Source: Verrucomicrobiia bacterium
Lineage (GTDB): Bacteria > Verrucomicrobiota > Verrucomicrobiia > Verrucomicrobiales > Akkermansiaceae
Assembly (NCBI GenBank): GCA_030431475.1
Contig: JAUIJD010000006.1
Span: 1 to 64,000, forward strand
Reading direction: 5' to 3'
Length of the DNA stretch: 64,000 nucleotides
How positions within the stretch are numbered: position 1 is the first letter of the stretch; the number at the start of each line of letters is the position of its first letter. The position numbers were made by a program, and so were the translations under genes. This document shows positions 10,903-33,488 of this stretch, piece by piece. The notes under the pieces were generated by a model. That model worked only from the letters and a program-made list of their open reading frames with translations, searched no databases and was not told the origin of the DNA.

Positions 10903-12510
10903 ATGACCGCTACCGTCGTCGACGACCAACCCATCGCTTCCAATGCCAAGCGCCTTCTATGGGCCGGCTTCCTCGCCATCCTCGCCGCCGGCATCGGCTT
11001 CGGTGTCCGCGGCGGCATCCTCGCCAACTGGGAGGGTGAGTTCGGCTTCACCGGCTCGCAGTTGGGAGCCATCGGCGGCGCCGGCTTCACGGGTTTCTGC
11101 TTCGGCATCATCATCGGCGGCGTGGTGGTCGACAAGATCGGCTACGGCAAGCTGGTGTTCGCCGCCTTCCTGTTCCACGTCCTCTCCGCGCTGATCACCT
11201 TCGCGGCGTCCGGCGGACAGGAGCAGGCCACCGCCTACAACTTCCTCTACTGGGGCACCTTCGTCTTCGCCCTCGCCAACGGCACCCTGGAAGCCGTGGC
11301 CAACCCGCTGGTGGCGACCCTGTTTCCGAACAACCGCACGCACTACCTCAACATCCTCCACGCCTCGTGGCCGGCCGGCCTCGTCATCGGCGGCATGATC
11401 GGCTGGACCCTCGGCGAAGCGGGCGTCCACTGGAAGGTGCAGCTCGGTCTCTTCCTCATTCCCACCGTGCTCTACGGCATCTGGTTCATGGGTCAGAAGT
11501 TCCCGAAGTCGGAAGCGGCCGAGAGCGGACTCAGCATCGGGCAGATGTTCAAGGAGGTCGGCATTCTCGGGGCGGCCGTCGCCGCCTATCTCCTCGTCCT
11601 TTTCGGCCAGAAGGCGCTGGGACTCCCCGATGCGGTCGCGTGGGCGATCGGTGGTGCGATCCTCGTCGTGGTCGGCTTGATCACCCGGTTCTCGGTCGGC
11701 TCGGTGCTGCTCTTCATCCTGTTCATCACCCACGCGCTCATCGGTGCGGTCGAACTCGGCACCGACGGCTGGATCCAGAACATCACCGGCAACATCCTCA
11801 CCCCCGCCGAGGGCAAGATCCTCTTCGTCTGGACCTCGCTCGTCATGTTCGCCCTCCGCTTCTGCGCCCACTTCATTGAAAACAAGCTCAAGATCTCTCC
11901 GATCGGCCTGCTTCTCATTTGCTCGGTGCTGGCGGTCGTCGGACTCAACCTCGCGAGCGGAATGACCGGCTTCATCGCGGCGATGGGCGCGCTCACGATC
12001 TACGCCCTCGGCAAGACCTTCTTCTGGCCCACGATGCTCGCCGTCGTCGGCGACCGCTTCCCCAAGACCGGCGCGATCGCGATGTCCATCATGGGTGGCA
12101 TCGGCATGATGTCGGCGGGTCTCCTGGGCAACGAAGGCCTCGGCTACGCGAAGGACCGCTTCACCGTGGAGCATCTCAAGGAGAACAACCCGGCCCTCTA
12201 CGAGGAGAACAAGGCGGAGGAGGCAGGATCCTTCCTGTTCTTCGACGAAGTGACGGGCGTCGACGGCAAGAAACTCGGCGCCGCCAAGGAGGTCGCCGAA
12301 GAAGAACGCTCTCCCGAGCAGCAGCAACTGGTCGAGTCGAGCATCGCCGGGGACCGCAAGACCCTGAAGGTCGACTCCCTCATCCCCGCGACGATGGCGG
12401 TGATCTACCTGCTGCTGATGATCTACTTCAAGGCGATCGGGGGCTACAAGGCCCTCAAGATCACGCCGGAACAGGCCAGCGGCGGTGTGGCCGTCCCCGG
12501 CGAGGGTTGA
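10903..12510 (+). CDS. MFS transporter
   Basis: A 535-residue membrane protein with about 12 helices. [17 protein letters not shown] after the first helix and [15 protein letters not shown] (the loop 2-3 motif, G-x3-D-x-x-G-x-x) place it in the major facilitator superfamily. A hydrophilic stretch of about 70 residues, ending near KTLKVDSL, sits before the last helix, an unusual insertion. Acidic-residue and substrate motifs do not allow a substrate call. It stands alone between two terminators, so it is probably monocistronic. Confidence 0.85.
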
Positions 12511-19491: not shown

Positions 19492-22400
19492 TCAACGAAC
19501 TAGCCCCATCAGCTTCTCGTAGCTGTCCACCTTGTCGTATTTCACCTGGTCAGTGGAGATCTTGGCGAAGAATTTTCGGGCACAGTCGATCTTCGACTCC
19601 TCGATCGGGCGGATCTCCAGCTTCGACATCGACCCCTTGGTCTCGGCGATGAAATAAACGTGCCGGACCTTCCCGGAGTCGAAGACGACGGCCCAGTCGG
19701 GATTGTAGTCGCCGACCGGGGTCGGGATGGCGAAGCCGCGGGGAAGCTTGGCGTAGACCACCACCTCGGCACTGGTGTCCAGTTCCTCGACGAACTCCCG
19801 TTCGCCCTTGGAGTCGGTGAAAACGTAGTCGTAGATGTGATTCTCCGCCTTGTAGGCCTTGGAGAAATCCTCCTTGGCCTTCTCGACGGCGAAAATGGCG
19901 GAGTCGTAGCGCTCGTCGATCGGGTCGTAGGCGAGGTGCTCGATGATCATCGTGGCCTTCTGCTCCCTGATGAGCGTGGCGGCCTTGCTGATGAAGGCCT
20001 CGGGGTTGGCTTTGAAGCGGCCGAAGACCGCCACACTGATGCCCTTGAGGATGGCCGCCACCGTCCGTCGGGTCAGCTGGGCCTGCTCGGCGATCTCGCC
20101 GATAAGATCGTAGCTCACGGTGGCCCGGATCGAGCCGGTCATGTATTCGGCCTCCTGCTCGGTGACCTTGAAGCTCGTCCTGGCAGCGAGGTCCTCGGGG
20201 TCGATGGACTCATTCTGCTCGCCCCGCTTCACCTGAAACCGCAGTTCCTCCACCCGCAGGTCCTTGTCGAGGGCCTTGATGGATTTCTCGATCAACTCCT
20301 CGCTGTCGAAGTCGACGGTGTAGGCGGCCTTGCGGTTGATCTTCTCCCACAGCGCTTGGAACTCCTTCTTCTTGAAGTTGTCGTTCAGGACGTTCTCCTT
20401 CGCCTTTCGTCCGTCCTCGATGTCGGGCAGGGCGGCGTCGGAATAGACCGAGTCCACCAGTTGGAAGACCTGCTCGGCGTAGGGTTTCAGTTCCTCGGGC
20501 AGCTCGGCCAGCGTGCCCTCCTTCTTGGACTGGTGGTAGGCCTCGGTGATCTCCTCATCGACATTTCGATAGCCGTTCTGGATCAGGTAGAAGTCGATCT
20601 GCTTGGCCATCGCCTGGGTGACCTTGATGTCGCCCTCCTCGGTCTTGAGGATCTTGTCGGTGAAATACTTCTCGTTCGCCTTCCTCGGCCGGTCGGAAAG
20701 GCCCTCGCGGATGTCGTTCTGCAGGCCCTTCACGAAGTCCTCGTACGACTCGTTGGCGATGACCGTCAGGACGTTGACTTGGTGGGCAGTGACCGGGTTG
20801 TCCATCCGCTCACCATATTGGTTCACGCACAGCCGCATCCCCCGGCCGACCTCCTGCCGGCGGGAAATGGTGCTGTCGCTGTGCTTGAGGGTGCAGATGT
20901 TGAAGACGTTCGGGTTGTCCCAACCTTCCCGGAGGGCTGAGTGGGAGAAGATGAACCGGACCTGCTTCTTCCGCCGCTCGAGGTCGCCGTCGTGCGGGCC
21001 CGGGAAGGACAGCAGGGTCTCCTTGTCGCGGAGGATCAGGTCGTAGGCATCCACGTCGTCCGCCATGCCGGCGTCCTCGCCGCGTGACTTCACCTTCGGA
21101 TCCACCAGCCGCTTGCTCTTCTTGTCGATGGAGAAGTAGCCGTTGTGGGTATCCGCTGCGGTGATCTCCTTCAGGAAACGCTGGTAAGGGCTGTCTTCGA
21201 GCTCCATTTCCTCGTTCAAGGCCTGCTCGTATTCCTCCTCGAAGGCAGCGGCGTACTCACCGCCGAGTTCGCTACCGTCCTCGTCGTATTTCTTGTACTT
21301 CGCCACCTCGTCGATGAAGAACAAGCTCAGGACCTTGATGCCCTGGTCGAACAGCTTCTTCTCCGCCTCGAAGTGGGACCGGATCGTCTCACGGATCTGG
21401 ATCCGACGTAGGGCTGACTCGCTCACGTCACCGCTCACCATGCCGACCTCCAGCTTCTTCCCGTTGCTGAACGTGACGGTGTCGTGCACCGCGTCGATCT
21501 CGGCCACGGTGAAGCCGTCGTATTGAGGCAGGCCATTCGACTGGTCCTTGAGGTTGTAGCCGCTATGAACCCGGCGGACGACCCGCTTGATCGCCCCCGA
21601 CTGGAGCCGCACCTCATGCTCGAGCCGAGCGTAGGGTTTCGGCCGGGCCGGGACGATACCCTCGAGAAAAAGATAGCTGTCCGTCCCGCTCAGGCCCTTC
21701 TGGGCGATGCCGTGGACGCGGATCTTCTTCACCAGCTTCTGGTTGTAGGCGTCGAGGGCATCGAGGCGGTGGATCTTGTTGTGCTCGGTCTTGTGGGTCG
21801 CCGAGTAGCGGAGGATGAAGAGCGGATTGAACTCCTGGAGCGACTCAACCGCCACCTTTCCCTCCATCTTCTGGGGCTCGTCGAGGATCAGGACCGGGTG
21901 GTTGGCCTTGATCACGTCGATGGGCCGGCGGGACTGGAAATCGTCCAGCTCCTCGTAGATCCGCCGGGCATCTTTACCCTTCGGGAGGTCCTTGCCCCGG
22001 CGAGCGGCAAAGGCCTGGACGTTGATGACCATCACGTTGATCCCGCCGTCCGAGGAAAAGCTCTCCAGCTTGTGCGGGTGCTTCGAGTCGTAGGTGAAGA
22101 AGCGGGCCTTCTTGCCGTAGTCCTGGAGGAAGTGCTCGGCGGTGATTTCAAGAGACTTCTGCACCCCTTCCCGGATGGCGATGCTCGGAACCACCACGAT
22201 GAACTTGGTCCAACCGTAGCGGCGGTTCAGCTCGAACATCGACCGCAAGTAGCAGTAGGTCTTCCCGGTGCCCGTCTCCATCTCGACATCGAGGTGGAGA
22301 GGTGAAGCGGCGAGCATCGCCTTGCGGTAGGCCGCCTTGACGGCGGTTCGCTTGCCCTTCTTGCCGTCGATGACGGTGAATTCAGTCAGCGACGTGGCCT

Positions 22401-22647
22401 GGGGCAGATTCTGGCTCCGCTGTACCTTCTGGATGTTCTCGAGGAGTTGCCCGTCATCGAGCATGATGGGAGCGTTGCGGAAGGCCTCGGTTCCGTAGTC
22501 CATCTCGGACTGGGCCTGCTTAGCCGCCTGCTTCCCGGGGTCCAGCCGGTAGCCAACCCCTTCGACCTTCGGCTGGCCGGCGAAGCAATCGACCACAGCG
22601 TCCACCGCCGCGGCCTGGTAGTCCTTGTGCTTGAATTGAATCTTCAT
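19492..22647 (-). CDS. res: type III restriction enzyme, Res subunit
   Basis: A 1051-residue helicase-nuclease. The Walker A motif METGTGKT is at residues 123-130, and the motif II box is LILDEPQ, typical of type III Res. Motif VI-like [18 protein letters not shown] follows. The C-terminal nuclease has NPDWAVV ... FIAETKGS, the PD-(D/E)xK arrangement. With Mod it would translocate along and cut DNA that lacks methylation at the Mod target site. The start codon overlaps the stop of the AlbA_2 gene by 4 bp. It is the last gene of the operon, followed by the island end. Confidence 0.93.
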
Positions 22648-24488
22648 GATTGCGGTTTCGCCTGCACCGTCCGGTAGGCTTGCTTTGGGTGGCGCTCCAT
22701 ATCGGGGTAGAGGTATTCAAGCTGCCCTGCCTTCCGCATTGGATTCAGGTGGTCGCGTTTCAGGCGGTCAGGGTCCTTACGCCCGAGAAACTCGCATAGT
22801 GTGGTCGCCATGAGCGGCTGCCAGTCGCAAAGCTGTAGGATGATTTCTCGAAGTTCTGTTTCGGGAGGACGTTTCCGAAGCGACATGAGCCGCTTCTGAA
22901 GGTCGGCAGGGAGGCGGTGGGCCAATGCCGGGTGCTCAGAGGCCAAAGCCGTATGCTTGCCGGCTAAAGCCGTATGCTCGGCGGCCAAAGACGTATGCTC
23001 CGAAGTCGGGAAGGCCGTCCCGGGGACGTAGTAGGTCGCCGATCCCCGCCCTTTGGACTCCAGCAGCCCGAAATCCCGGAGCTTCCGCAGCTCCTGGCTC
23101 ACGGGGAGGACCTCGGCCCCGGTGAGCTGCCGCAGCGTCTGGTTGTCCACAGCCCCCTGTTCGCGGACGAAAATCAGGGCGATCTTCTGCCCGTCGCTCA
23201 GCTCGTGGGGAATGGCCTTCAGCCAGGCCAGATCCGCCTCCGAGAGGAAATGGTGCAGCAGCAGCCGGCTCACAAAAAAGTTCTCAGCCCGGCTCGACTC
23301 GAAGGTCGGGAGACTGAAGCCGTTCTCCCGCATCAACCGCCGCATCGTCCGGATGCCGCTGCCCTTGGTCTCGGCAATATTGGTTTCGTGGAAGATCGCG
23401 GCGAGCGTCGGGTTGCGGAGGGCCGAACCGGCCTCGCCGAGGGAGTCCTCGTTCTTGAGGGAAAAACCAGCATTCTTGATCTCGATCCGGTTGCTGTAGC
23501 GGATGACCTGCGTCGGCTGGTGCTCCCGGTAGGACCGGTGCATCAGGGCGTTCACGATCGCCTCCCGCAGAACCCGGGATGGAAGGGTCGGAGTATCCGC
23601 CTGCACCTGCCCTTCCTTCAGCTCGAAGCCCTTCGGGAGATCGTCCATCACAGCGGCGAGCACCCGGTCCACCAGCCCGAGAAGGGGCCCCCGCATATCG
23701 ACGGTGGCCTCGAAACGGCGATCCGGGTCGCTGATCCACTCCTTTCCCGCCACACGGATGTAATCCACCCGCACCATGGGAAGTTCACGGCGGTGGGCCG
23801 ACCGCTTTCCGAAGACCAGTAGCCCGGTCAGCGTCGGCTTCCACCGCTCCCCGTCCCGGCGGACGGCATTCAGGGATTGGAGTAGCTCGAGGTCACTGTA
23901 TCCCAGCTCCTCTGCCTCGGGATTCACCTTCCGCCGCAGCGTTCGGTAGAACTCGATCGCATCCGGATCCAAGTCCTCAAGGTCGGCATGGGTCAGGAGC
24001 GAAAGGTCGTAGCTCTCTCCCTGCCGGTCACCGTAGAAGATGACCATGTCGTCATCGGTGCAGCTCTGGTCGGTCGATCCGATGCGTCGCCACGCCCCCC
24101 TGGGCAGGCCGTGTTTCCTGAAATAGACTGGCTTGTCGCTTGGTGCTCGCTCGTCCACCTCGACGATCAGGACAGTTTTCCCATCGTGCTCTTCGACGGT
24201 GACCCGCGGCCGGACGTGAAGGTTGAACTTCTCCGAACAGCCGGAGGCGATGTCCTGCTGAACTTTGTCCGCATCGCCCACGCCGCAAATCTCATAGCCT
24301 CCGAATAGATCATCCTCGCTCCTTGCCACCCCAAGCACGATTCTGCCACCACCCAATCCCGGCTCGTTGACGAAGGCACACACCGTCTCAAAGAATGAGT
24401 TCCCGACATCATCCCCACGGCAGGCCTTGGCCTCCAAGGTCGGGTGCTCGTCCAGCTCGTTGAGTTCCTTGAGAAGATCGACAATCAC
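22644..24488 (-). CDS. AlbA_2 domain protein with ATPase-like and winged-helix regions
   Basis: A 614-residue protein. Residues about 14-135 form an AlbA_2 (divergent AAA_4) domain with [25 protein letters not shown] and GGRIVLGV. Residues about 300-400 carry [16 protein letters not shown] and [11 protein letters not shown], typical of the HATPase_c_4-like part. Winged-helix regions follow, separated by four 7-residue repeats (EHTALA-like). Related proteins are common inside or beside restriction-modification loci and are thought to be nucleic-acid-binding regulators or effectors. The GTG start at 24488 overlaps the mod stop, and its stop overlaps the res start, so all three genes are coupled. 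Confidence 0.85.
22921..23004 (-). repeat. four tandem 21-bp repeats inside the AlbA_2 gene
   Basis: Units at 22921-22941, 22942-22962, 22963-22983 and 22984-23004 differ at a few positions only. They encode [21 protein letters not shown] and SEHPALA. As 21 is a multiple of three, gain or loss of units would keep the reading frame. Confidence 0.9.
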
Positions 24489-26581
24489 AGCGTCTTGAGC
24501 TCGGTGTGGGGGCTGAGGGCCTTGAAGATCTGCTCGATGTTGATCTTGGTGGAGTCGCTGGCGTAGCCGGCATCGCGGAAGACGGCTCGCAGGGGCTCCC
24601 GCTTGGCAAGAGTCTTGCAGAAGTCCTCGGTGAGGCCGGTGTCGAAACAGGCGGCGAGGGCGTTGTCGGCCACGAAGAAGACCCGCTTGCCCTCGATCTC
24701 TTCCTCGGTGATCGGGAGGCCGAGATCGACGCCCCAGTCGAGGAGGACTTGGAAGAGGAGGTCCTCGGGTTCGCGGCCCTCCTTCACGTTGTCGACTTGC
24801 AGATCGAGGGCGTCTTGGGTGATCTGGTCAGGCTGGTAGTAGACCTCGGCCATGTTCGAGCTGTCGATCTGAAGCACCCGAAACCCCAAGTCTAACCTCT
24901 CAAGCCGGCCTTGTGCGTCTGCGATACTGGCCTCGAGCTCATGGATTTCTGTGGTGGCTTGCTTCTCACGTTCCTCACGTATCTCCTGAGAACCAGGCTT
25001 TCGCATCGCCTCTTCTGCAGAATTTTTCAACCTCTGAAGCTTCGATTGCTGTTGAGAGATATCTTCTGCTAAAGACTCCCTAACCCGCTTGCCAGCCCTC
25101 CTTATTCGTTCCTTGCCGATATCAGCAATCGATTTGTAGCCCGCCTTGTAAGCCTGGCTCTCTTCGTCACATGGTTCTGGAAGCTGAACCATGATGTAGC
25201 GCCGGTCGCCACCATCCTTTGCGTTCAGCTGCATAACAGCATCGGCCGTGCTTGCCGAGCCAGAGAAAAAGTCGAGAACAATAGCTCCAACGTCATCCCA
25301 TGTCACCGTTCGCACAAGGTAAGCGAGCAGACTCGAAGGTTTCGGGTAGCTCATGATGCCCTCCTCACCAAATAGCTCAATCGCTTCTTGGTAAGCATCC
25401 TCGTTCGTTCCTACGCCACTCGCTTTATCGATCAAAGTAGAGGGGCGTTTCACCTTGTTGGCCTGATCATGGCGAAGCGAATTCAGCCCAAACTTCTTAG
25501 AAAGCGCGACTCGACTTCCCAATGCGATCTCGCTCGTGAGCTTCTTTTGAGTCCACACGAATGGCCCTTCAATCGAACAGCTTCCAACTACCTTGCCGCC
25601 TTTGACTTCGAGGTCGTCCAGGAAGCTTATTCCCGAACTCCCAACTCCGTAATCTCCCGCCTCATAAATTCCGTCATCGAGTGTCGTTTCTAAAAACGCA
25701 GCTGGAAACTTTAGTATCTTCCGTGAGTTAGTGCGCTTTGCCAGCGGTTGCCATTTGTCTGAGTAGGCCTTCTCCCCTACAAGCTCAACATTCTCCAGTG
25801 ACCGTGCGACGCAAATCACGTATTCGGTCATGCTGCGAGCTCGGGGTGAAAGGTGGCTTCCCTTCTTCTTTTTGACCCATGTGAAGATTGCAATCACGTT
25901 CTGCGGACCAAATACCTCGTCTACTACTCGCCTAAGATTTGCTAATTCACCATCATCTATGGAAATGTAGAGGACTCCATCATCCGTTAGGAGATTGCGG
26001 GCAAGGCGGAGCCGTGGATACATCATCGAGAGCCACTCCGAGTGGAATCGTCCGTTAGCCGCCGAGTTCTGCTTCCACTTCTCCTCATCGAACATGGCAT
26101 TCCCTTCCTCGTCCCGCTCACCAGCCTCCTCCTCGTAGTCCTCCCGGCTCATCGAGAAATTGTCATCGTAGATGAAGTCGTTCCCCGTGTTGTAGGGCGG
26201 GTCGATGTAGATCATCTTGACCTGGTTCAGGTAGGTCTCCTGGAGCAGCTTGAGGGCGTCGAGGTTGTCGCCCTCGATGTAGAGGTTACGGGTCGTCTCG
26301 AAGTCCACCGACTCCTCCTTGCACGGCCGCAGGGTCTTGGTGATCGGGGCATTGGCGAGGGCCAGAGACTCCCGCTTGCCCGGCCAATCCAGCCGGTAGC
26401 GTTCCTGGGCTCCCTCCACCAGATCCCCGGACAGCTCCTGCCGCAGCAGATCGAAGTCGATGGCCGGCTTGATCAATCCATCCTCCGCCCGGCTTTCCGT
26501 CACGCAATTCGGGAACAGCTCCGCCAGCTTCGCCGCATTCGCCTCCGCAAAGTCCGGGGTGTGTAGTTTGAGTTTGTCCAT
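24485..26581 (-). CDS. mod: type III restriction-modification methyltransferase, Mod subunit
   Basis: A 698-residue adenine-N6 methyltransferase. The catalytic motif DPPYNTGNDF is near residue 131 and the SAM-binding motif FFSGSAST near 430, the order of the beta class used by type III Mod proteins. The part between and just after them holds the target-recognition region, and this stretch (about 24890-26040) is visibly richer in A and T than either end. Mod sets the site specificity for both methylation and Res cleavage. It is coupled by overlaps to the AlbA_2 and res genes downstream. Confidence 0.95.
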   Translation of the reverse strand: MDKLKLHTPDFAEANAAKLAELFPNCVTESRAEDGLIKPAIDFDLLRQELSGDLVEGAQERYRLDWPGKRESLALANAPITKTLRPCKEESVDFETTRNLYIEGDNLDALKLLQETYLNQVKMIYIDPPYNTGNDFIYDDNFSMSREDYEEEAGERDEEGNAMFDEEKWKQNSAANGRFHSEWLSMMYPRLRLARNLLTDDGVLYISIDDGELANLRRVVDEVFGPQNVIAIFTWVKKKKGSHLSPRARSMTEYVICVARSLENVELVGEKAYSDKWQPLAKRTNSRKILKFPAAFLETTLDDGIYEAGDYGVGSSGISFLDDLEVKGGKVVGSCSIEGPFVWTQKKLTSEIALGSRVALSKKFGLNSLRHDQANKVKRPSTLIDKASGVGTNEDAYQEAIELFGEEGIMSYPKPSSLLAYLVRTVTWDDVGAIVLDFFSGSASTADAVMQLNAKDGGDRRYIMVQLPEPCDEESQAYKAGYKSIADIGKERIRRAGKRVRESLAEDISQQQSKLQRLKNSAEEAMRKPGSQEIREEREKQATTEIHELEASIADAQGRLERLDLGFRVLQIDSSNMAEVYYQPDQITQDALDLQVDNVKEGREPEDLLFQVLLDWGVDLGLPITEEEIEGKRVFFVADNALAACFDTGLTEDFCKTLAKREPLRAVFRDAGYASDSTKINIEQIFKALSPHTELKTL

Positions 26582-26620: not shown

Positions 26621-27526
26621 TTAGGTGGTCCAGAGCGGATGCTCCTGCCAGTCGGTGGGTAGGCCCATTTCCTTCACGGGGATCTCGGGATACTCGGCAA
26701 AAAGTTGATCAACCCGGCCAGCCCACTGACTGGTTGGGGAGATCTGCGACAGGAAGGCCCGGCAAATCATGAGCAAGATGCCGACCCGATTGTTGGTCAG
26801 GACGTTCTTTCCGTCCCCGTCCTTGAGGTGCCAGTCGGGGTGCTTGTTCTTCTGGGGGAGGCCCGGGGCGTAGCCAAGGGCCCGGTTCCAGAGACGGGAG
26901 TGGTGAGCACAGATGTTTCGGGCGGCGTAGAGGCTAAGTAGCCACGTCTTGAGCTGCTCGTCCGGCATGCTGAAGTGGGCAGCCACGCGATCGGCGATGT
27001 CGCCTTCCACACCTCGGTAGAAGGTCAGCATGCTTCCCATGCTCATCAGCTCCGCCACCATCCAGATCGGCAGGTTCCGCTCGTCGTATTTCTTGAAGAA
27101 GTGCGTCTTGTAGGCCTCCTTGCTGCGTTCCGTCTCCACCCGGAGGCCTTCCCGCCATTCGATGTAGCGACCGACGCTCAACTCGGGCAGGTTATCCTCC
27201 TGGCAGTGCCCGAAAGCCCCATGGGCATGGGCGAAGTGGTAAACGAGTTGGGTGCGGACCGCGACTTCCACCCGCTCAATCGCATCCAGGAGGAGAACGC
27301 GAAGGCGGCGGTCGAAGCAGTAGCGGTTCCAGATCGTGGTGAGCGAGGTGCCCGGCTGGTAGGCATCAGAATCGGGAACCCGGAACGGGTAGAGGTAGCC
27401 GGAAAGACGGTAGTAGCTCACTGCCTGGAGGCGCTGGATCAGCTCGTCCCGGTCGGCCTCCAGTCCTCGGTCGAGGAGGCGATCCGCCTGCTGCTCAAAG
27501 CTGAGAGCGGTCTTCAGGTATTCCAC
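26621..27526 (-). CDS. Abi_2 (AbiD/AbiF) family abortive infection protein
   Basis: About 301 residues from a GTG start at 27526, preceded by AGGAGG at ideal spacing; this is why I reject the longer form from 27631. The protein begins VEYLKTALSFEQQADRLLDRG and has SYYRLSGYLYPFR, both typical of Abi_2. The motif ARNICAHHSRLWNR contains R-x4-H, the HEPN RNase signature. Such proteins are thought to act as RNA-targeting growth-arrest effectors during phage attack. It lies between DUF6088 and mod, 39 bp before mod. Confidence 0.9.
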   Translation of the reverse strand: MEYLKTALSFEQQADRLLDRGLEADRDELIQRLQAVSYYRLSGYLYPFRVPDSDAYQPGTSLTTIWNRYCFDRRLRVLLLDAIERVEVAVRTQLVYHFAHAHGAFGHCQEDNLPELSVGRYIEWREGLRVETERSKEAYKTHFFKKYDERNLPIWMVAELMSMGSMLTFYRGVEGDIADRVAAHFSMPDEQLKTWLLSLYAARNICAHHSRLWNRALGYAPGLPQKNKHPDWHLKDGDGKNVLTNNRVGILLMICRAFLSQISPTSQWAGRVDQLFAEYPEIPVKEMGLPTDWQEHPLWTT

Positions 27527-27771
27527 GGCCCCTCCTTTCCGCGGTGACAACGAGGGATCTGGGCAGAAAAAACCTCCCGAATTACGCTTCCAAGGAGAGG
27601 CGCGGGAGGTGTGCTGACCCCAAGAGTCCACAGTTCCCCAATATTCGCAAGTATTTTAGTTTTCTTTACTATTTGGACCAGCTTCTCCAGGTGATTTAGC
27701 TCACTTACATAGAGTGAGTTATGGATACTGGTGGCCGGCGAGCTCAGAGGGTTGAAGATACTCACGGTTTC
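27527..27771. other. AT-rich spacer with promoter character
   Basis: The spacer between the DUF6088 and Abi_2 genes is far richer in A and T than its surroundings between about 27630 and 27730. It contains short inverted words (CTCACT ... AGTGAG near 27700-27720). It probably holds the promoter of the Abi_2-mod-AlbA_2-res run. I see no convincing gene. Confidence 0.5.
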
Positions 27772-28401
27772 CTAAGCTTTTCTCGGTTCTGCGGAAGGCT
27801 GAACGGGCCTGAGGTGGTCAAAATGAGGGTGCATCCATGCCGGGGCGTGGACACGGTCCTTCCACAGCCGGTCCCGGTCGGCGTCCGGCATGGTCCGCTG
27901 CAGGGTGGCGATGTGGTCGTCGGTGACACCGTCTTTCTTGAGGTGACGGAACGCCTGGATGACAAGACCGGAGGGGCGACCGGCGGTGGCCATGTTCTTC
28001 GGCGTGGTGCGACGGAGCTGAATCCGTTGGTTGCCGACCTCCACCGACTTGTCTGAGCCATCGGTGAGATAGACGATCTTGGCGGGAACCTGCTGGGAGA
28101 GCCCCAGGAGGTTCACGGCGTAGGCCCCGGAGGGCTGGAGCCGGCTTTCGTCCTTCTCGCTGATGGCCCGGGCGATGGCATCGGGATTTGGGCTCAGGAG
28201 GCCGAGCTCGGGGTGCTTCTTCGGGTAGTCATACAGGCCGAAGGCGAGTCGGCGGATGGTGTCCCCGGCGGCAAGACGGCTCAGGGCTTGGTCCACAGCG
28301 GCACGCGATCCGAGGTCGAGAAAGCGGTTCGGAGTGAACACCCAACCTCTTCCCTTCCCACGAATCCTCGAAACTACCTTACTTTGGACGTTTGTAGCCA
28401 A
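27772..28401 (-). CDS. DUF6088 / AbiEi-antitoxin-like protein
   Basis: A 209-residue protein. The start region SRIRGKGRGWVFTPNRFLDLGSR, read as separate motifs RIRGKGRGWVFTP and DLGSRAAVDQALSRL, is the winged-helix of the DUF6088 group. GAYAVNLLGLSQQVPAK and YLTDGSDKSVEV match the AbiEi-like central domain. AbiEi proteins are the antitoxin and repressor of type IV AbiE toxin-antitoxin pairs, but no AbiEii nucleotidyltransferase gene is next to it. The start is a TTG at 28401, since no ATG or GTG fits. A 9-bp palindrome lies just upstream. Confidence 0.8.
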   Translation of the reverse strand: MATNVQSKVVSRIRGKGRGWVFTPNRFLDLGSRAAVDQALSRLAAGDTIRRLAFGLYDYPKKHPELGLLSPNPDAIARAISEKDESRLQPSGAYAVNLLGLSQQVPAKIVYLTDGSDKSVEVGNQRIQLRRTTPKNMATAGRPSGLVIQAFRHLKKDGVTDDHIATLQRTMPDADRDRLWKDRVHAPAWMHPHFDHLRPVQPSAEPRKA

Positions 28402-28480: not shown

Positions 28481-29137
28481 TCACGGCTGGGTCAGGCCGT
28501 CCAGCTCCGCCTGCAGCGGCTTGAGCTCCTGATTCATGGCGACCTTTCGGTTGAACTGCTTTTCCCGGCGAATCCGGGCCGCCAGCTGGTCCACCTTCCG
28601 GCGGAGTACGAGGTAGCGCTCGCAGCGGGTGACCTGATTCCCGAGGCCCTCGCCCTTCCGGGCCGGGAGCGGCAGCAAACCTGCCATGAGGGCGGCGTAG
28701 AGGTGGCCGAGGTCGAGGACAGCCGGCAAGCCGGGCGGCTCGTCCGGTGCTGGGCCGAACTCGGAGGTGAACCGGGCTCCGACGACCCACTGCCCGGAGT
28801 CGGCCTCGCTGGGCCGCTTGAAGGCGGCGCTGTGGGCGATGCCGGCCTCGGACCGGAGCCGATGGATCACCGGGTAGGGAATCGCCCGGTCAATGGTATC
28901 GAGGACGGCGTCGTCGAGGGCGGGCGTCTTGAGCCGGATCTCGAAGATCTGGATTTCCGGCACTCCGGGCTTCGCCGGCAGGTGGAGCGTCTCCGGGGAC
29001 AGCTTGTGGGCCCACCGGATCTCGGCGACCTGGGAGGTGAAGAGGTCGCGGACCCTCCGGCTCGGCTGGACGTGGGCGTAGATCCGGGACTTGGGAATGG
29101 TCTTCCCGAAGACAGTCTTGGGCGGGAAGGCGAACAT
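28481..29137 (-). CDS. DUF4391 family protein
   Basis: A 218-residue protein from the ATG at 29137. It begins MFAFPPKTVFGKTIPKSRIY, matching the DUF4391 N-terminal pattern, and continues with LFTSQVAEIRWAHKLSPET. The last ~50 residues form a charged helix (RRKVDQLAARIRREKQFNRK), possibly a coiled coil. DUF4391 genes are repeatedly found with a helicase and a type III methyltransferase, so a role in that defence set is likely; biochemistry is unknown. It starts 4 bp after the stop of the Cys-rich gene. An in-frame TTG at 29182 would overlap that gene. Confidence 0.85.
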   Translation of the reverse strand: MFAFPPKTVFGKTIPKSRIYAHVQPSRRVRDLFTSQVAEIRWAHKLSPETLHLPAKPGVPEIQIFEIRLKTPALDDAVLDTIDRAIPYPVIHRLRSEAGIAHSAAFKRPSEADSGQWVVGARFTSEFGPAPDEPPGLPAVLDLGHLYAALMAGLLPLPARKGEGLGNQVTRCERYLVLRRKVDQLAARIRREKQFNRKVAMNQELKPLQAELDGLTQP

Positions 29138-29141
29138 GAGC

Positions 29142-29591
29142 TTAGGCGATGCTCCCCCAGTCAATTCGCTTGCCGTGCTCAAGGATCAATCCGCCGGTGC
29201 CCATGCCCGGGGAACAGTCGATGGAATGCTCGCCCTCGATGGGGAGTTCGATGACTTCAACTCGGGAAGCCTCGTCCTCCTCCGTGGGAAAGAATGCCCC
29301 ACCGGGCTCGCAGTAGAGGTAGAAGTCGCCAAAGTGAGCCCCGCAGGGGCAGGTGTTCATGAAATACTCCGTATCGGCCATCTTGGAGTGGCGACGCTCG
29401 TAGTTCGGCTGAGCAGCAGTGATGGCGAGCAGGAACTCGTCGGGCATCGATCGAATGTCGCTGAGCACGAAGGGTTCCTCCTTGCCGGACGCCAGGGCGA
29501 CGACGCGGCAGGTCTTGCCACATTTCCAACAATCCTCACTGGAGCGGAACAGGTAGAATGGAGGAGAGAAGGTCTCGATGTCGTGAAGCAT
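29142..29591 (-). CDS. Cys-rich, probably zinc-binding protein in the defence operon
   Basis: A 149-residue protein, not recognised as a named family. Cysteines are grouped as CWKCGKTC (residues 21-28) and TCPCGAHFGDFYLYC, which suits one or two zinc sites. LASGKEEPFVLSDI lies between them. I chose the ATG at 29591, 10 bp after the helicase stop; a TTG at 29621 would overlap the helicase gene. The tight spacing to helicase and DUF4391 indicates co-expression. It could be an adaptor or nucleic-acid-binding subunit, which is inference only. Confidence 0.7.
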   Translation of the reverse strand: MLHDIETFSPPFYLFRSSEDCWKCGKTCRVVALASGKEEPFVLSDIRSMPDEFLLAITAAQPNYERRHSKMADTEYFMNTCPCGAHFGDFYLYCEPGGAFFPTEEDEASRVEVIELPIEGEHSIDCSPGMGTGGLILEHGKRIDWGSIA

Positions 29592-29601
29592 GGCGTCGGG
29601 A

Positions 29602-32600
29602 TCAGTCGGTGGGCTGGACAACGAGGAACGAGATCAGCTCGAAGTCGTCGAGCCCGGTGATGGAGTCGACGAGGGCCGTTGTCTTGCCCGGTTGGAAGAG
29701 GCTGTCGATGTCGCCTTCCTCCTTCACGTCGATCATCGAGCGGATGGCGTCGTCGAGCAGGGCGGAGTAGCGGCTCATGTCGCGGCCGTCCTTGGTGGCC
29801 TCATTGAAGTGCCGGCAGAGATCGGGGTAGGGTTCCTCTCGTCCCTTGCAGGCGGTTCTGGCGAGATCGAGGAGGCGCTTCACCTCGGTATGCCGGGTGA
29901 TGACCTCGCCGTCGTTGCCGATGAAGACGAGGTAGTAGGGGTGGAGCCGGTTCTGGTGGTCGATGTTCACCCCGTCCTCACGGTTTCGGAGGGTGAACAG
30001 CACTCCGGGAACCAGTCCGCGGTCGGGATTGGCCGGGACGACGGCATGGAGGCCGTTTGGCGTCCGACTCGGGTCACCGTGCTCCTTCACGTAGCTGACC
30101 AGATCCATCCGGAAGTCATTCAGCCCGAGATCGGTGATGGAGATGCCGGTCTTGAGGTCCTCCATTTCGATCACCTCCTCCTGAAGCCGGCGGAGCTGCT
30201 CCTTGCGGTAGGAAATCTCATTGGCCTTGGGGTCGAGGACGTTGTCACTGCCGGTGCCGGTGACATCAACGATGACCATGCGGTTCTCCACCCGCTCCTT
30301 GAGGTTGATGTATTCGTCGAGCGAGATGTCCGGCCAGTAGTTCACCAGCTGGATGCAGGAGTTCGGCGAGCCAATCCGGTCGATGCGACCGAACCGCTGG
30401 ATGATGCGGACCGGGTTCCAGTGGATGTCGTAGTTGATGAGGTAGTCGCAGTCCTGGAGGTTCTGGCCCTCGGAGATGCAGTCGGTGCCGATGACGAGGT
30501 CGATCACGCCCTTTTCCTCGGGCATCACGAGTTCCTTCTCCTTCGAGATCGGGGAGAAGAGCGTCATGACGTCCTGGAAGTCGTATCCCTGGCCGAGCGT
30601 CGTCTTCGGACTGGTGGTGCCGGTGATCTTGCCGGTGTGCAGGCCGAACCGCTTGAGGTGCCGGTCGGCGAGATTCTCGTAAAGGTAATCGGCGGTGTCG
30701 GCGAAGGCGGTGAAGAGAAGCACCTTCTTGTTGCCTGGATTGATGGGAGACTGGACCTTTGAGCTGATCTGCTGAAGAAGATGCTGGAGCTTGGCATCGT
30801 GCTCGGGCGTGACCTTCTCCATCTCGGTGATCAGGGCGACGATGACGGCGCGATCCGCCTCCATGGCCCGCTTCCAGGAGGGAAGGTCGAGATCCTCGAG
30901 GGCGATCTCGCTCTTGCCGCCCAAGGTCATTTCGTCCGGATCGGGGAGTTCATCGTCGTCCGGGTCGAAGTCGTCGGCATCCATGCTGGAGACCGAAAGG
31001 GACGACCGGTTGCCGGCTTCGTAGTCGTCGATCCGCTGGAGCATCCGCTGGTGATTGGCCTCGAGCTTTCCGAGGGTGATGCGGAAGGCGTGGACCGAGC
31101 TTTCAAGGCGCTTCAGCAGGTTGACTGTCATCAGGGCCCGGATGCCCTTCTGCTGGCCTGAGAGGCTGACGTTCCGGGAAATGCCCTCGAGGTCGTCGCT
31201 GTAGGCCTGCTCATACTTCGACCGTCGACTCGGAAGAATGAATTCCGCGGGTGTGTAGACGGCGAGGTCGAGCTGGGTCAGTTGGTCGTAGATCTGATCA
31301 AACCCGTCCACGTCGTCCCGCGTGGTGAGCGGCGGATGGAAAGCAATCGGGGGCCGACGCTCGGGGAAGGTGCCGATGTCGGCCGTATCGTAGTAGGCCT
31401 CGATGTGCTTCCGTGAGCGGGCAATCGTCACACTGTCCAGCAGCTCGAAAAACTCGAAATCGAGGGACTTGAGGATGGCCTCAGGCGTCCGCTCCTCCGC
31501 CGGCATCTTGCTCCAGCGAGTGAACGCCGCCTGGGCCTGACGAAAGATCTCCTCGATGCTGCTCTTGGTCTTGAGCTTGGCACTGAGTTTGTCCGATTCG
31601 CCCTCGTAGGCCAGGGCGAGCTGGTTCCGCAGGTCCGAGAAGCGGTTGTTCACCGGGGTGGCGGACAGCATCAGAACCTTGGTCTGCACGCCGGCCCGGA
31701 TGACCTGCTCCATGAGGAGCTCGTAACGGGACTTTCGCTCTTCCTCGCCCGGATTGTTGTTCCGGAAGTTGTGGGACTCGTCGATGACGATGAGGTCGTA
31801 ATTGCCCCAGTTCACCTGCTTGAGCGGCGTGCCGTGGGAGTAGCCGCTGGTCCGCTGGAGGTCGGTGTGATTCAGGACGTCGTAGTTCAGCCGGTCCGCT
31901 GCGAGCAGGTTCGTCTTGAGGTTCCGGTTGTACGTCAGCCAGTTGTCGGCCAGCTTCTTCGGACACAGGACCAGGACGGACTTGTTCCGCAGCTCGTAGT
32001 ATTTGATCACGGCGAGCGCCGTGAAGGTCTTTCCGAGACCGACGCTGTCCGCCAGGATACAGCCGTTGAAGGTCTCCAGCTTGTTGATGATCCCGATGGC
32101 CGCATCACGCTGGAAGTTGAAGAGCTTCTGCCAGACGACCGATTCCTGATAGCCGGTGCGGTCGTTGGGCATCACATCCTCGGTGATGTCCTCGAGGAAC
32201 TCCGTGAAAATATTGTAGAGCATCACGAAGTAGATCCGCTCTGGGGAATTCTCGGAATAGACGCCGGCGATGTGATCGCAGACCTGATCGGTCACGTCCT
32301 CCAGCTTCTCCTTGTCGTTCCAGATCTGCTCGAAGAGCTGCAGGTAGCCGTCGGTCATTGGTGACCCGGTGAACTTGTTGACGAGGTTCGAGAGGGCATT
32401 GCCCTGCTGATAGCCGAGATCAACCGCGGTGAATCCCTGCAGCGGGAAGTAGACGGCCGGCTCGGCGTCGGGGGATTCAACGCAGGCCATCTGCTGCATC
32501 GAGGATTTCGTTGCGTTCGACCGGAAGGTCGCCTTGTCGCGGATCCACTCCGCACATTCCCGGGCGATAGCCCGTTGGGTAAGCTTGTTCCGTAGCTGGA

Positions 32601-32877
32601 TCTCAAACTCAGTCCCGTAGAGGCTACGCTCCCGCTCCAGCTTCGGAATGAAGAACTCCCGCCGCTCCTTGGGCAGCTTGTCTGTCGCCTCCCCCTGAAC
32701 GAAAGTGGGTGAGGTGAAAATGAACTCGACCTCCTCGACCTGTTCCAGCTCCTCCTTCAGGGCCTCGTAGGCGTAGATGGAGAAGCACGAGGCTGCGATT
32801 CGCAGCTTCGCCCCGGAAGCGACCGTCCGCTTGAGGTCGTCCCCGAGGAGGTCGTTGACGTTGTCGATCGTTTCCAT
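29602..32877 (-). CDS. SNF2-type DNA helicase with PLD-like N-terminal domain
   Basis: A 1091-residue protein from the ATG at 32877. The first ~150 residues (KLRIAASCFSIYAYEAL and VEFIFTSPTF) resemble the PLD-like domain found in front of some defence helicases, though I see no HKD catalytic motif. The helicase core has Walker A ADSVGLGKTFTALAV, motif II VIDESHNF, the SAT-like LSATPVNN and a C-terminal lobe with QRFGRIDRIGS. Related helicases occur in DISARM-like and other multi-gene systems. It is probably a motor that scans or remodels phage DNA. A TTG at 32928 could add 17 residues. Confidence 0.9.
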   Translation of the reverse strand: METIDNVNDLLGDDLKRTVASGAKLRIAASCFSIYAYEALKEELEQVEEVEFIFTSPTFVQGEATDKLPKERREFFIPKLERERSLYGTEFEIQLRNKLTQRAIARECAEWIRDKATFRSNATKSSMQQMACVESPDAEPAVYFPLQGFTAVDLGYQQGNALSNLVNKFTGSPMTDGYLQLFEQIWNDKEKLEDVTDQVCDHIAGVYSENSPERIYFVMLYNIFTEFLEDITEDVMPNDRTGYQESVVWQKLFNFQRDAAIGIINKLETFNGCILADSVGLGKTFTALAVIKYYELRNKSVLVLCPKKLADNWLTYNRNLKTNLLAADRLNYDVLNHTDLQRTSGYSHGTPLKQVNWGNYDLIVIDESHNFRNNNPGEEERKSRYELLMEQVIRAGVQTKVLMLSATPVNNRFSDLRNQLALAYEGESDKLSAKLKTKSSIEEIFRQAQAAFTRWSKMPAEERTPEAILKSLDFEFFELLDSVTIARSRKHIEAYYDTADIGTFPERRPPIAFHPPLTTRDDVDGFDQIYDQLTQLDLAVYTPAEFILPSRRSKYEQAYSDDLEGISRNVSLSGQQKGIRALMTVNLLKRLESSVHAFRITLGKLEANHQRMLQRIDDYEAGNRSSLSVSSMDADDFDPDDDELPDPDEMTLGGKSEIALEDLDLPSWKRAMEADRAVIVALITEMEKVTPEHDAKLQHLLQQISSKVQSPINPGNKKVLLFTAFADTADYLYENLADRHLKRFGLHTGKITGTTSPKTTLGQGYDFQDVMTLFSPISKEKELVMPEEKGVIDLVIGTDCISEGQNLQDCDYLINYDIHWNPVRIIQRFGRIDRIGSPNSCIQLVNYWPDISLDEYINLKERVENRMVIVDVTGTGSDNVLDPKANEISYRKEQLRRLQEEVIEMEDLKTGISITDLGLNDFRMDLVSYVKEHGDPSRTPNGLHAVVPANPDRGLVPGVLFTLRNREDGVNIDHQNRLHPYYLVFIGNDGEVITRHTEVKRLLDLARTACKGREEPYPDLCRHFNEATKDGRDMSRYSALLDDAIRSMIDVKEEGDIDSLFQPGKTTALVDSITGLDDFELISFLVVQPTD

Positions 32878-33026
32878 GCCAATCAACCGACGGCTCAGCA
32901 AAGGATCTGAGGCCAGCTTCGGATCCAAGTAATGACGGAGTTAGCTCGGTGCGACAAGTCAGCACATTTGCGAGCTCTAACCTTCGTCCGGCGAGCGGCC
33001 CAGCAGCTCGGCGGCTATCCGAGGTG

Positions 33027-33371: not shown

Positions 33372-33413
33372 CATCAAACCCCGCCCCCGGAAGACCGGGG
33401 GCGGGGTTTGATG
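33372..33413 (-). terminator. 19-bp perfect hairpin after tRNA-Pro
   Basis: The arms are 33372-33390 and 33395-33413, with a 4-nt loop. On the minus strand it starts at the encoded CCA of the tRNA and has TTTG in its far arm. It is the likely terminator of the tRNA transcript. Confidence 0.8.
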
Positions 33414-33488
33414 GTCGGGGTGGCGGGATTCGAACCCACGGCCTCTTCGTCCCGAACGAAGCGCGCTACCAGGCTGCGCCACACCCCG
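33412..33488 (-). tRNA. tRNA-Pro (anticodon CGG)
   Basis: A complete cloverleaf on the minus strand. The acceptor stem pairs CGGGGTG with CACCCCG, followed by discriminator A and an encoded CCA. The anticodon stem CTTCG/CGAAG holds the loop TTCGGGA, with anticodon CGG. The T-arm reads GTGGG-TTCGAAT-CCCGC. It reads CCG codons, which are abundant in this GC-rich genome. Its 3' end serves as the integration site of the neighbouring defence island. Confidence 0.96.

Follow-up and report, generated by a model that had tools for sequence, protein, structure and literature searches.

A cysteine-rich gene inside a type III-like restriction operon is probably a passenger from an unnamed bacterial family

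The small cysteine-rich gene that lies inside a restriction operon of an Akkermansiaceae genome is probably a passenger, one that would be translated together with the operon and that its core would do without. The gene occupies positions 29142-29591 (minus strand) of the window, as we call the whole 64,000-nucleotide stretch of DNA analysed here. We infer that this single-gene passenger was probably acquired by transfer. Its product is small and acidic, and a single zinc site of four cysteines probably holds the fold together. It occupies the junction between the helicase and DUF4391 genes of a type III-like operon whose junctions carry differing cargo from genome to genome. Its tight spacing should permit co-translation with the operon, but the core occurs elsewhere without it.

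The host operon is, by its profile matches, a type III-like restriction system, with four core genes on the minus strand. The first encodes a helicase with HKD/PLD and SNF2 parts (29602-32928), for which PADLOC C3a139 'HKD+Snf2' was the best of 49 matching models (E 8.2e-120) and in which Pfam finds Helicase_C and SNF2-rel_dom; its listed TTG start is uncertain, with an ATG in the same frame 17 codons downstream. The second encodes the DUF4391 protein (28481-29137; PF14335, E 5.3e-50), the third the type III DNA methyltransferase, Mod (24485-26581; PADLOC MTase_III, E 1.4e-205), and the fourth the restriction subunit, Res (19492-22647; PADLOC REase_III, 1025 bits; RE_endonuc PF19778, E 1.1e-33). 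With Mod and Res both present, the operon belongs with the type III restriction-modification systems. The cysteine-rich gene fills the helicase/DUF4391 junction (slot 1). The DUF4391/Mod junction (slot 2) holds a DUF6088/AbiEi-like gene (27772-28401, minus strand; PF19570, E 1.1e-44; PADLOC AbiEi, E 5.8e-68) and an Abi_2/AbiD-like gene (26621-27631, minus strand; PF07751, E 2.5e-49; PADLOC AbiD, E 3.4e-64), and the Mod/Res junction (slot 3) a SLFN_AlbA_2/RecG-C-like gene (22644-24488, minus strand; PF04326, E 1.3e-10; PF13749, E 1.3e-15). GC3 within the window is 0.86-0.91 for helicase, DUF4391 and Res, 0.76-0.79 for the cargo genes and lowest, at 0.69, for Mod; because Mod is itself a core gene, this measure fails to separate core from cargo. 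A tRNA-Pro gene (cgg; 33412-33488, minus strand) precedes the helicase start by some 480 bp and may mark the boundary at which the defence island integrated.

The cysteine-rich gene was found as the initial annotation had described it. Its ATG is at 29591 and its stop ends at 29142, giving 149 residues on the minus strand, 10 bp past the helicase stop (29602) and 4 bp ahead of the DUF4391 ATG (29137); it is intact, co-directional with the operon and tightly spaced. The length of the open frame is in itself weak evidence for a gene: a frame of 149 codons stays open by chance with P ~0.026 (window composition, independence assumed), and one antisense frame is also open over it. We nevertheless conclude that this is a real gene, because it is conserved, with relatives at 38-46% identity and invariant alignment columns.

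Judged by these relatives, among which are Planctomycetota, Acidobacteria and Nitrospirota genomes, the protein is a member of an unnamed and widespread bacterial family. The initial annotation could assign it to no family, and none with a name emerged here: searched singly, it had no significant match in Pfam, NCBIfam, PADLOC, PHROGs or the PDB sequences. Several candidate matches were rejected, namely the CSL zinc ribbon PF05207 (E 0.7; 10.1 bits against a cut-off of 29.2), phrog_9973 (E 0.17), and HscB_4_cys, the best Pfam match among ten stand-alone members, which spans a 10-residue stretch and falls below the cut-off (E 0.0036). The family profile, run against the PDB sequences, found just two retroviral Gag zinc-knuckle chains (E 0.55 and 4.1), which are short CWKCGK look-alikes, and the NCBIfam scan of 39 members reached a top E of 0.04 with something unrelated. 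A peptide-pattern scan (one genome per species) confirmed 45 genome loci among 106 candidate stretches, a count that rests on short conserved peptides and misses divergent members. Profile searches found the domain in 4/387 genomes of the window's own phylum and in 5/398 of a second phylum sample, some of these matches being partial; it is thinly scattered across the genomes sampled. No family match came from phage records (tblastn), and none of 102 pattern matches in viral contigs was confirmed. A distant relative of 248 aa (L123 1276-2022), with extra CxxC pairs and a weak DUF7837 match below the cut-off, could represent a further branch of the family.

The family alignment, A4, has 39 rows and draws on 38 of the 45 genome loci. 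The seven omitted are two copies of L028 (L029 and L030), L036, which is near L034 and has a frame interrupted upstream, and the interrupted or partial L058, L059, L063 and L064. Ten of its columns are invariant (C24, N79, C81, C83, G88, E95, P96, F100, F101 and P102), and the window protein carries the whole family signature, that is, a C-x2-C and a C-x1-2-C pair together with N79, G88, E95-P96 and F100-F101-P102. Both cysteine clusters noticed earlier are present, CWKCGKTC at residues 21-28 and TCPCG...YC at residues 80-94. Non-conservation of the cysteines, which the initial annotation had named as an outcome that would speak against it, is ruled out: in the first pair, C21-W-K-C24 (codons 29520-29531, minus strand), C24 is kept in 39/39 rows and C21 in 38/39, and in the second, C81-P-C83 (codons 29343-29351, minus strand), both are kept in 39/39, spaced as CxC in five rows, the window included, and as CxxC in 34. 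These four are family features, whereas the remaining cysteines of the two clusters, C28 and C94 (of the second 'TC' and of 'YC'), are not conserved in the 39 rows. The domains are acidic as a group, with a net charge that is negative in 36 of the 39 and zero in three; that of the window protein is -13 (pI 4.64).

The sensitive profile search and structure prediction that had been proposed brought family relatives and a confident model, but neither a named family nor a significant PDB fold match. AlphaFold2 run on A4 gave a model of mainly strands with short helices (pLDDT 92.5, pTM 0.87), in which the cysteine pairs directly follow strands 12-20 and 74-80. When a member of the DUF5710 class was modelled as well (pLDDT 84.3, pTM 0.70), the elements of the domain came in broadly the same order. 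Foldseek against the PDB gave nothing significant, the best E being 0.68 for the window model and 0.33 for the second. The top VIA rows, at Z 2.2 (rmsd 5.3, 65 aligned) and Z 2.5 (rmsd 4.3, 47 aligned) respectively, lie in a range, Z 2.0-2.5, that we rejected as indicating relatives; the rows of the second model mostly cover residues 1-45, its DUF5710 part. The best match among viral predicted structures (E 0.40) was taken as noise. The absence of a PDB fold match does not prove a new fold for the modelled domain. The four conserved cysteines, arranged as CWxC plus CxC/CxxC, probably hold the fold via one zinc site. Thus, of the earlier suggestion of a zinc-dependent adaptor, the zinc part is retained as a putative site, which the conserved paired cysteines suggest, and the adaptor role is not.

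It was the position of the gene that had led to its being read as a real part of the system, and the same evidence would favour an integral zinc-dependent adaptor that bridges the helicase and DUF4391 proteins and is required for defence: the 10 and 4 bp gaps separate it from exactly those two genes, its paired cysteines are conserved, and the acidic protein folds confidently in the model. A survey of the same junction elsewhere argues strongly against this. Of 52 DUF4391 loci, 13 had no upstream helicase match and three no measurable DUF4391 match, which left 36 measurable rows or 35 distinct junctions, L116 and L118 being one junction. In 31 of the 35 the gap is at most 71 bp and holds no inserted gene; four hold an extra gene, and the cysteine-rich gene is present only in the window's own junction (1/35; 0/34 others). 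Moreover, all four core genes are annotated, in the same order, on five plasmids, from Phaeobacter, Enterobacter, E. coli, Photobacterium and Acinetobacter, and none of these operons has the cysteine-rich gene. Nor are its homologues always beside helicase and DUF4391, as a check proposed at the outset would have it: tblastn (E 1e-3) found the window's helicase, DUF4391, Mod and Res in the flanks examined of 0/45 homologue loci, three of whose contigs are shorter than 5 kb. A core component should be present in most operons, and this gene is not. We therefore consider the adaptor highly improbable, and the gene no integral part of the system. Co-occurrence of the DUF4391 and cysteine domains across genomes is no evidence either way, because chance alone gives about 0.3 genomes per sample: the two occur together in one of 387 genomes, the window's own (26 and 4 carriers), and in 0/398 (22 and 5 carriers), DUF4391 being counted at E 1e-5 in the first sample and at E 1e-10 in the second. 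Among 14 genomes with a homologue of the cysteine-rich gene, one, that of L033, has DUF4391 elsewhere.

The closest comparison comes from a genome of the same genus (G319), whose operon L137 is 92% identical to the window's in the helicase, 78% in DUF4391, 58% in Mod and 88% in Res. It has no match to the cysteine-rich gene, and its helicase and DUF4391 genes nearly abut. Since the gene is present here and absent there, either the window's lineage acquired it or that of G319 lost it; the rarity of a filled slot 1 would favour gain. The two Mod genes (window 24485-26581; L137 10004-12025) have DNA ends that are 86-87% identical and a strongly diverged middle, a pattern as expected for a swap of the target-recognition region.

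Four junctions in the survey have slot 1 filled: that of the window, that of L079 with a 125-aa orphan, and those of L070 and L111 with a four-helix gene of the 23S_rRNA_IVP type, identified by Pfam in L070 and by likeness in L111. In these last two (L070 1082-1441; L111 ~1051-1419, operon orientation) the gene has short GGATGAAGGCGGAA-like repeats on either side, as if a mobile cassette were making use of this site too. At L138, in a genome of the window's own family, the helicase-DUF4391 slot is taken by an orphan of 125 aa (11690-12067) that Pfam does not match. The other two junctions are open far more often. Over 41 operon stretches, gaps above 250 bp occur in 4/40 helicase/DUF4391, 18/39 DUF4391/Mod and 19/38 Mod/Res junctions, and a recount above 500 bp gives 15/39 and 18/38 for the latter two; a gap above 250 bp need not hold a gene, as the 281-bp gaps of L091 and L166, without annotated gene, illustrate. 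This set includes one copy (L166, 100% identical to L091) and one pair of close kin (L164 of L093), and four of its members were chosen, L138, L140 and L141 for a filled slot 1 and L137 as the closest relative, all four coming from the junction-survey samples. Slot 1, unlike slots 2 and 3, is thus rarely filled, and the insertion of the cysteine-rich gene may be less neutral than the word passenger implies.

We could name the cargo of just a few operons, with neighbours at unannotated loci taken from our own ORF calling and no trained gene finder. By Pfam it comprises Peptidase_S8, GmrSD and UvrD in L137; AAA_21 with DUF4276, and a RES-domain protein next to an unmatched protein, in L138; and SIR2_2, Fic and RhuM in L141. 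By annotation it includes an ATP-dependent endonuclease and a DUF2130 protein in L092 and an RNA-binding-domain protein in L091. The effector-type domains among these (Fic, SIR2, GmrSD), along with the AbiEi/AbiD-like genes of the window, make it tempting to imagine a special case of the passenger, a guard or backup effector comparable to PrrC, which would stay silent until restriction is inhibited and then harm cell or phage. The gene is indeed embedded within a restriction operon, and there are precedents in PrrC, as presented in PMC12707154, and in the auxiliary effectors of BREX operons that PMC12839542 describes. However, profile searches gave no match to a nuclease, an NADase or any other catalytic family, and the relatives have varied neighbours among which none of the window's core genes appears, so that we regard a guard as distinctly unlikely.

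What surrounds the relatives varies from locus to locus. The initial annotation would have been contradicted by homologues lying mainly outside defence contexts, and this outcome came about in part: they lie outside the helicase-DUF4391 system, but not outside defence in general, as some are near CBASS, restriction or SAVED genes. In a Blastopirellula MAG, a DUF5710-type member directly follows CBASS genes for a SAVED-HNH effector, a cyclase and an E2 (L033 6795-10498). Restriction and SAVED genes are near the relative at L010 and a PIN-TPR-GreABC protein near that at L031; the large proteins beside these two are unrelated to each other. Further neighbours of a defence or toxin-antitoxin kind came from family scans of the stand-alone contexts (L021, L026 and L032 left out): a PIN gene at L022, a DUF6932 gene with an HTH gene next to it at L027 and a prokaryotic E2 gene at L028; neighbours at L024 have no family match, and those at L025 only weak PADLOC matches (IetA, TRIP13). 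Around the longer, mostly chromosomal members neighbours vary as well, with an smpB-like gene at L048 and a YchF-like GTPase at L052 by eye. Helicase-like genes were also seen by eye on the same strand as DUF5710-type members, one UvrD-like and 15 bp upstream (L034 7992-9821), the others large NERD/helicase-like genes 63-92 bp downstream at three Pseudomonas loci (L038 10584-13205, L043 from 10555, L054 10584-13196).

Among 853 ORFs around 51 loci we found no partner conserved across the family. Close relatives aside, the one neighbour family that spans genera and looks meaningful is NYN, and the link is weak: NYN-like proteins of three genera lie directly downstream in L011 (8663-9382) and L052 (10470-12194) and about 6 kb away in L047 (2899-3687). 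Other genus-spanning clusters look generic (LysR-like, SDR-like and one six-locus cluster). Such variable company, with no cross-genus partner beyond these three NYN loci, would also suit a neutral hitch-hiker, a household or mobile-element gene without a defence role at a site that tolerates it, and slot 1 does accept a 23S_rRNA_IVP gene as well. Against this, the cysteine-rich gene is kept intact, in the direction of the operon and in tight spacing, and the identified cargo of the other slots is often defence-like. A neutral gene, a reading that overlaps with that of a passenger, seems to us somewhat unlikely. The readings weighed here overlap in part, and their probabilities do not sum to one.

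The family is also carried by plasmids. With tblastn (E 0.01), 436 plasmid records have a match, 64 of which cover at least 80% of the query. The typing of 396/436 as conjugative and the position of some copies among transfer genes, together with the acidity of the family, would fit an anti-restriction or tolerance protein of mobile elements that tempers the restriction of entering DNA and is kept beside the system it modulates. Yet the plasmid set is dominated by near-identical enterobacterial plasmids (310/436 from Escherichia), many copies of the family lie on long chromosomal contigs, and neither the profile searches nor the PDB and Foldseek comparisons offer a sequence or fold link to a known anti-restriction family. 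An anti-restriction role is, on these grounds, very unlikely.

The domain occurs in two main forms and a third. In the stand-alone form it is free of DUF5710 (PF18974; Pfam), in the window protein as in all 10 of the other stand-alone members scanned. Among 10 longer members scanned with Pfam, an N-terminal DUF5710 scores over the cut-off in eight and below it in one and is absent from one; two longer Burkholderia-type members are also without it. In the tree, a modestly supported branch (74/80) has the 12 stand-alone rows together on a single side, and these rows, of low identity, come from seven phyla (Pseudomonadota, Planctomycetota, Nitrospirota, Verrucomicrobiota, Lentisphaerota, Acidobacteriota and Myxococcota). 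The third form is a CoiA-family protein: that of L129 carries CoiA_N (Pfam E 2.2e-11), which is its sole Pfam match, with no nuclease model, and proteins like it on plasmids bear the annotation 'competence protein CoiA family'. In a single comparison of profiles (A4-A5), the C-terminal domain of CoiA-family proteins matched the family with a probability of 97.9 (E 3.7e-13). A DUF5710 protein at L018 that lacks the cysteine domain carries Toprim. The company of DUF5710, CoiA and Toprim therefore points to DNA handling as a likely setting for the domain, and its acidity would argue for protein contacts or DNA mimicry over simple DNA binding.

We tentatively suggest, as one possibility short of an even chance, that the passenger acts as a stand-alone version of a protein-contact module, joined elsewhere to DUF5710 or CoiA-family parts and stabilised by zinc, with an accessory, backup or regulatory part to play beside restriction. 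It could also be a modulator, optional to the system, that works with it in the window's lineage alone. A bolder version would place it, as a stand-alone protein, in an undescribed family of zinc-site domains whose fold no solved structure has yet shown. The domain would then be a mobile module that the DUF5710 proteins of plasmids and CoiA-family proteins also contain, the operon a chassis that collects interchangeable defence cargo, and the domain in it a new accessory defence factor; taken as a whole, we hold this to be fairly unlikely. In the open-access literature we found no paper on the four-gene operon or on the cysteine domain, which does not show that none has been printed; DUF5710 and DUF4391 each turn up in a single paper there, in both cases under a title on another subject. 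An unnamed domain thus sits on plasmids, on chromosomes and in CoiA-family proteins, matched in the scanned members by neither Pfam nor NCBIfam and lacking a clear structural relative. With four recurring genes and a changing cargo in its junctions, the operon may let accessory defence genes be found by position instead of similarity. It also carries a caution for annotation, as a gene may be tightly packed into a defence operon and still not belong to its machinery.

Compared with known systems, the window's host operon corresponds to a type III Mod/Res system with an HKD-SNF2 helicase and a DUF4391 protein, a core that recurs in the fixed order helicase-DUF4391-Mod-Res, and the cysteine-rich gene stands outside these four recurring genes. 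The DUF5710 proteins, which on plasmids are also annotated 'DNA primase' or 'conjugal transfer protein TraC', resemble the window protein in the segment after DUF5710, which is homologous to it and shares its four cysteines and a GDFxLxxEPGG block. They differ in the N-terminal DUF5710, absent from the window protein, and the loci examined list no restriction operon alongside, unlike the window. CoiA-family proteins share the cysteine domain at their C-terminus, whereas the window protein has no Pfam match to CoiA_N. CoiA is a predicted PD-(D/E)XK nuclease according to PMC1189080, and because Pfam finds no nuclease model in the L129 protein, its nuclease part would follow from the family name and that published prediction; a protein with a CoiA domain is reported as a defence system in PMC9519451. 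Finally, BREX operons contain auxiliary effectors in the account of PMC12839542, and in that of PMC12707154 the EcoprrI type IC restriction locus has PrrC embedded in it as an accessory gene. The cysteine-rich gene likewise sits inside a restriction operon; it differs from PrrC in that profile searches of its protein return no anticodon-nuclease or other catalytic match.
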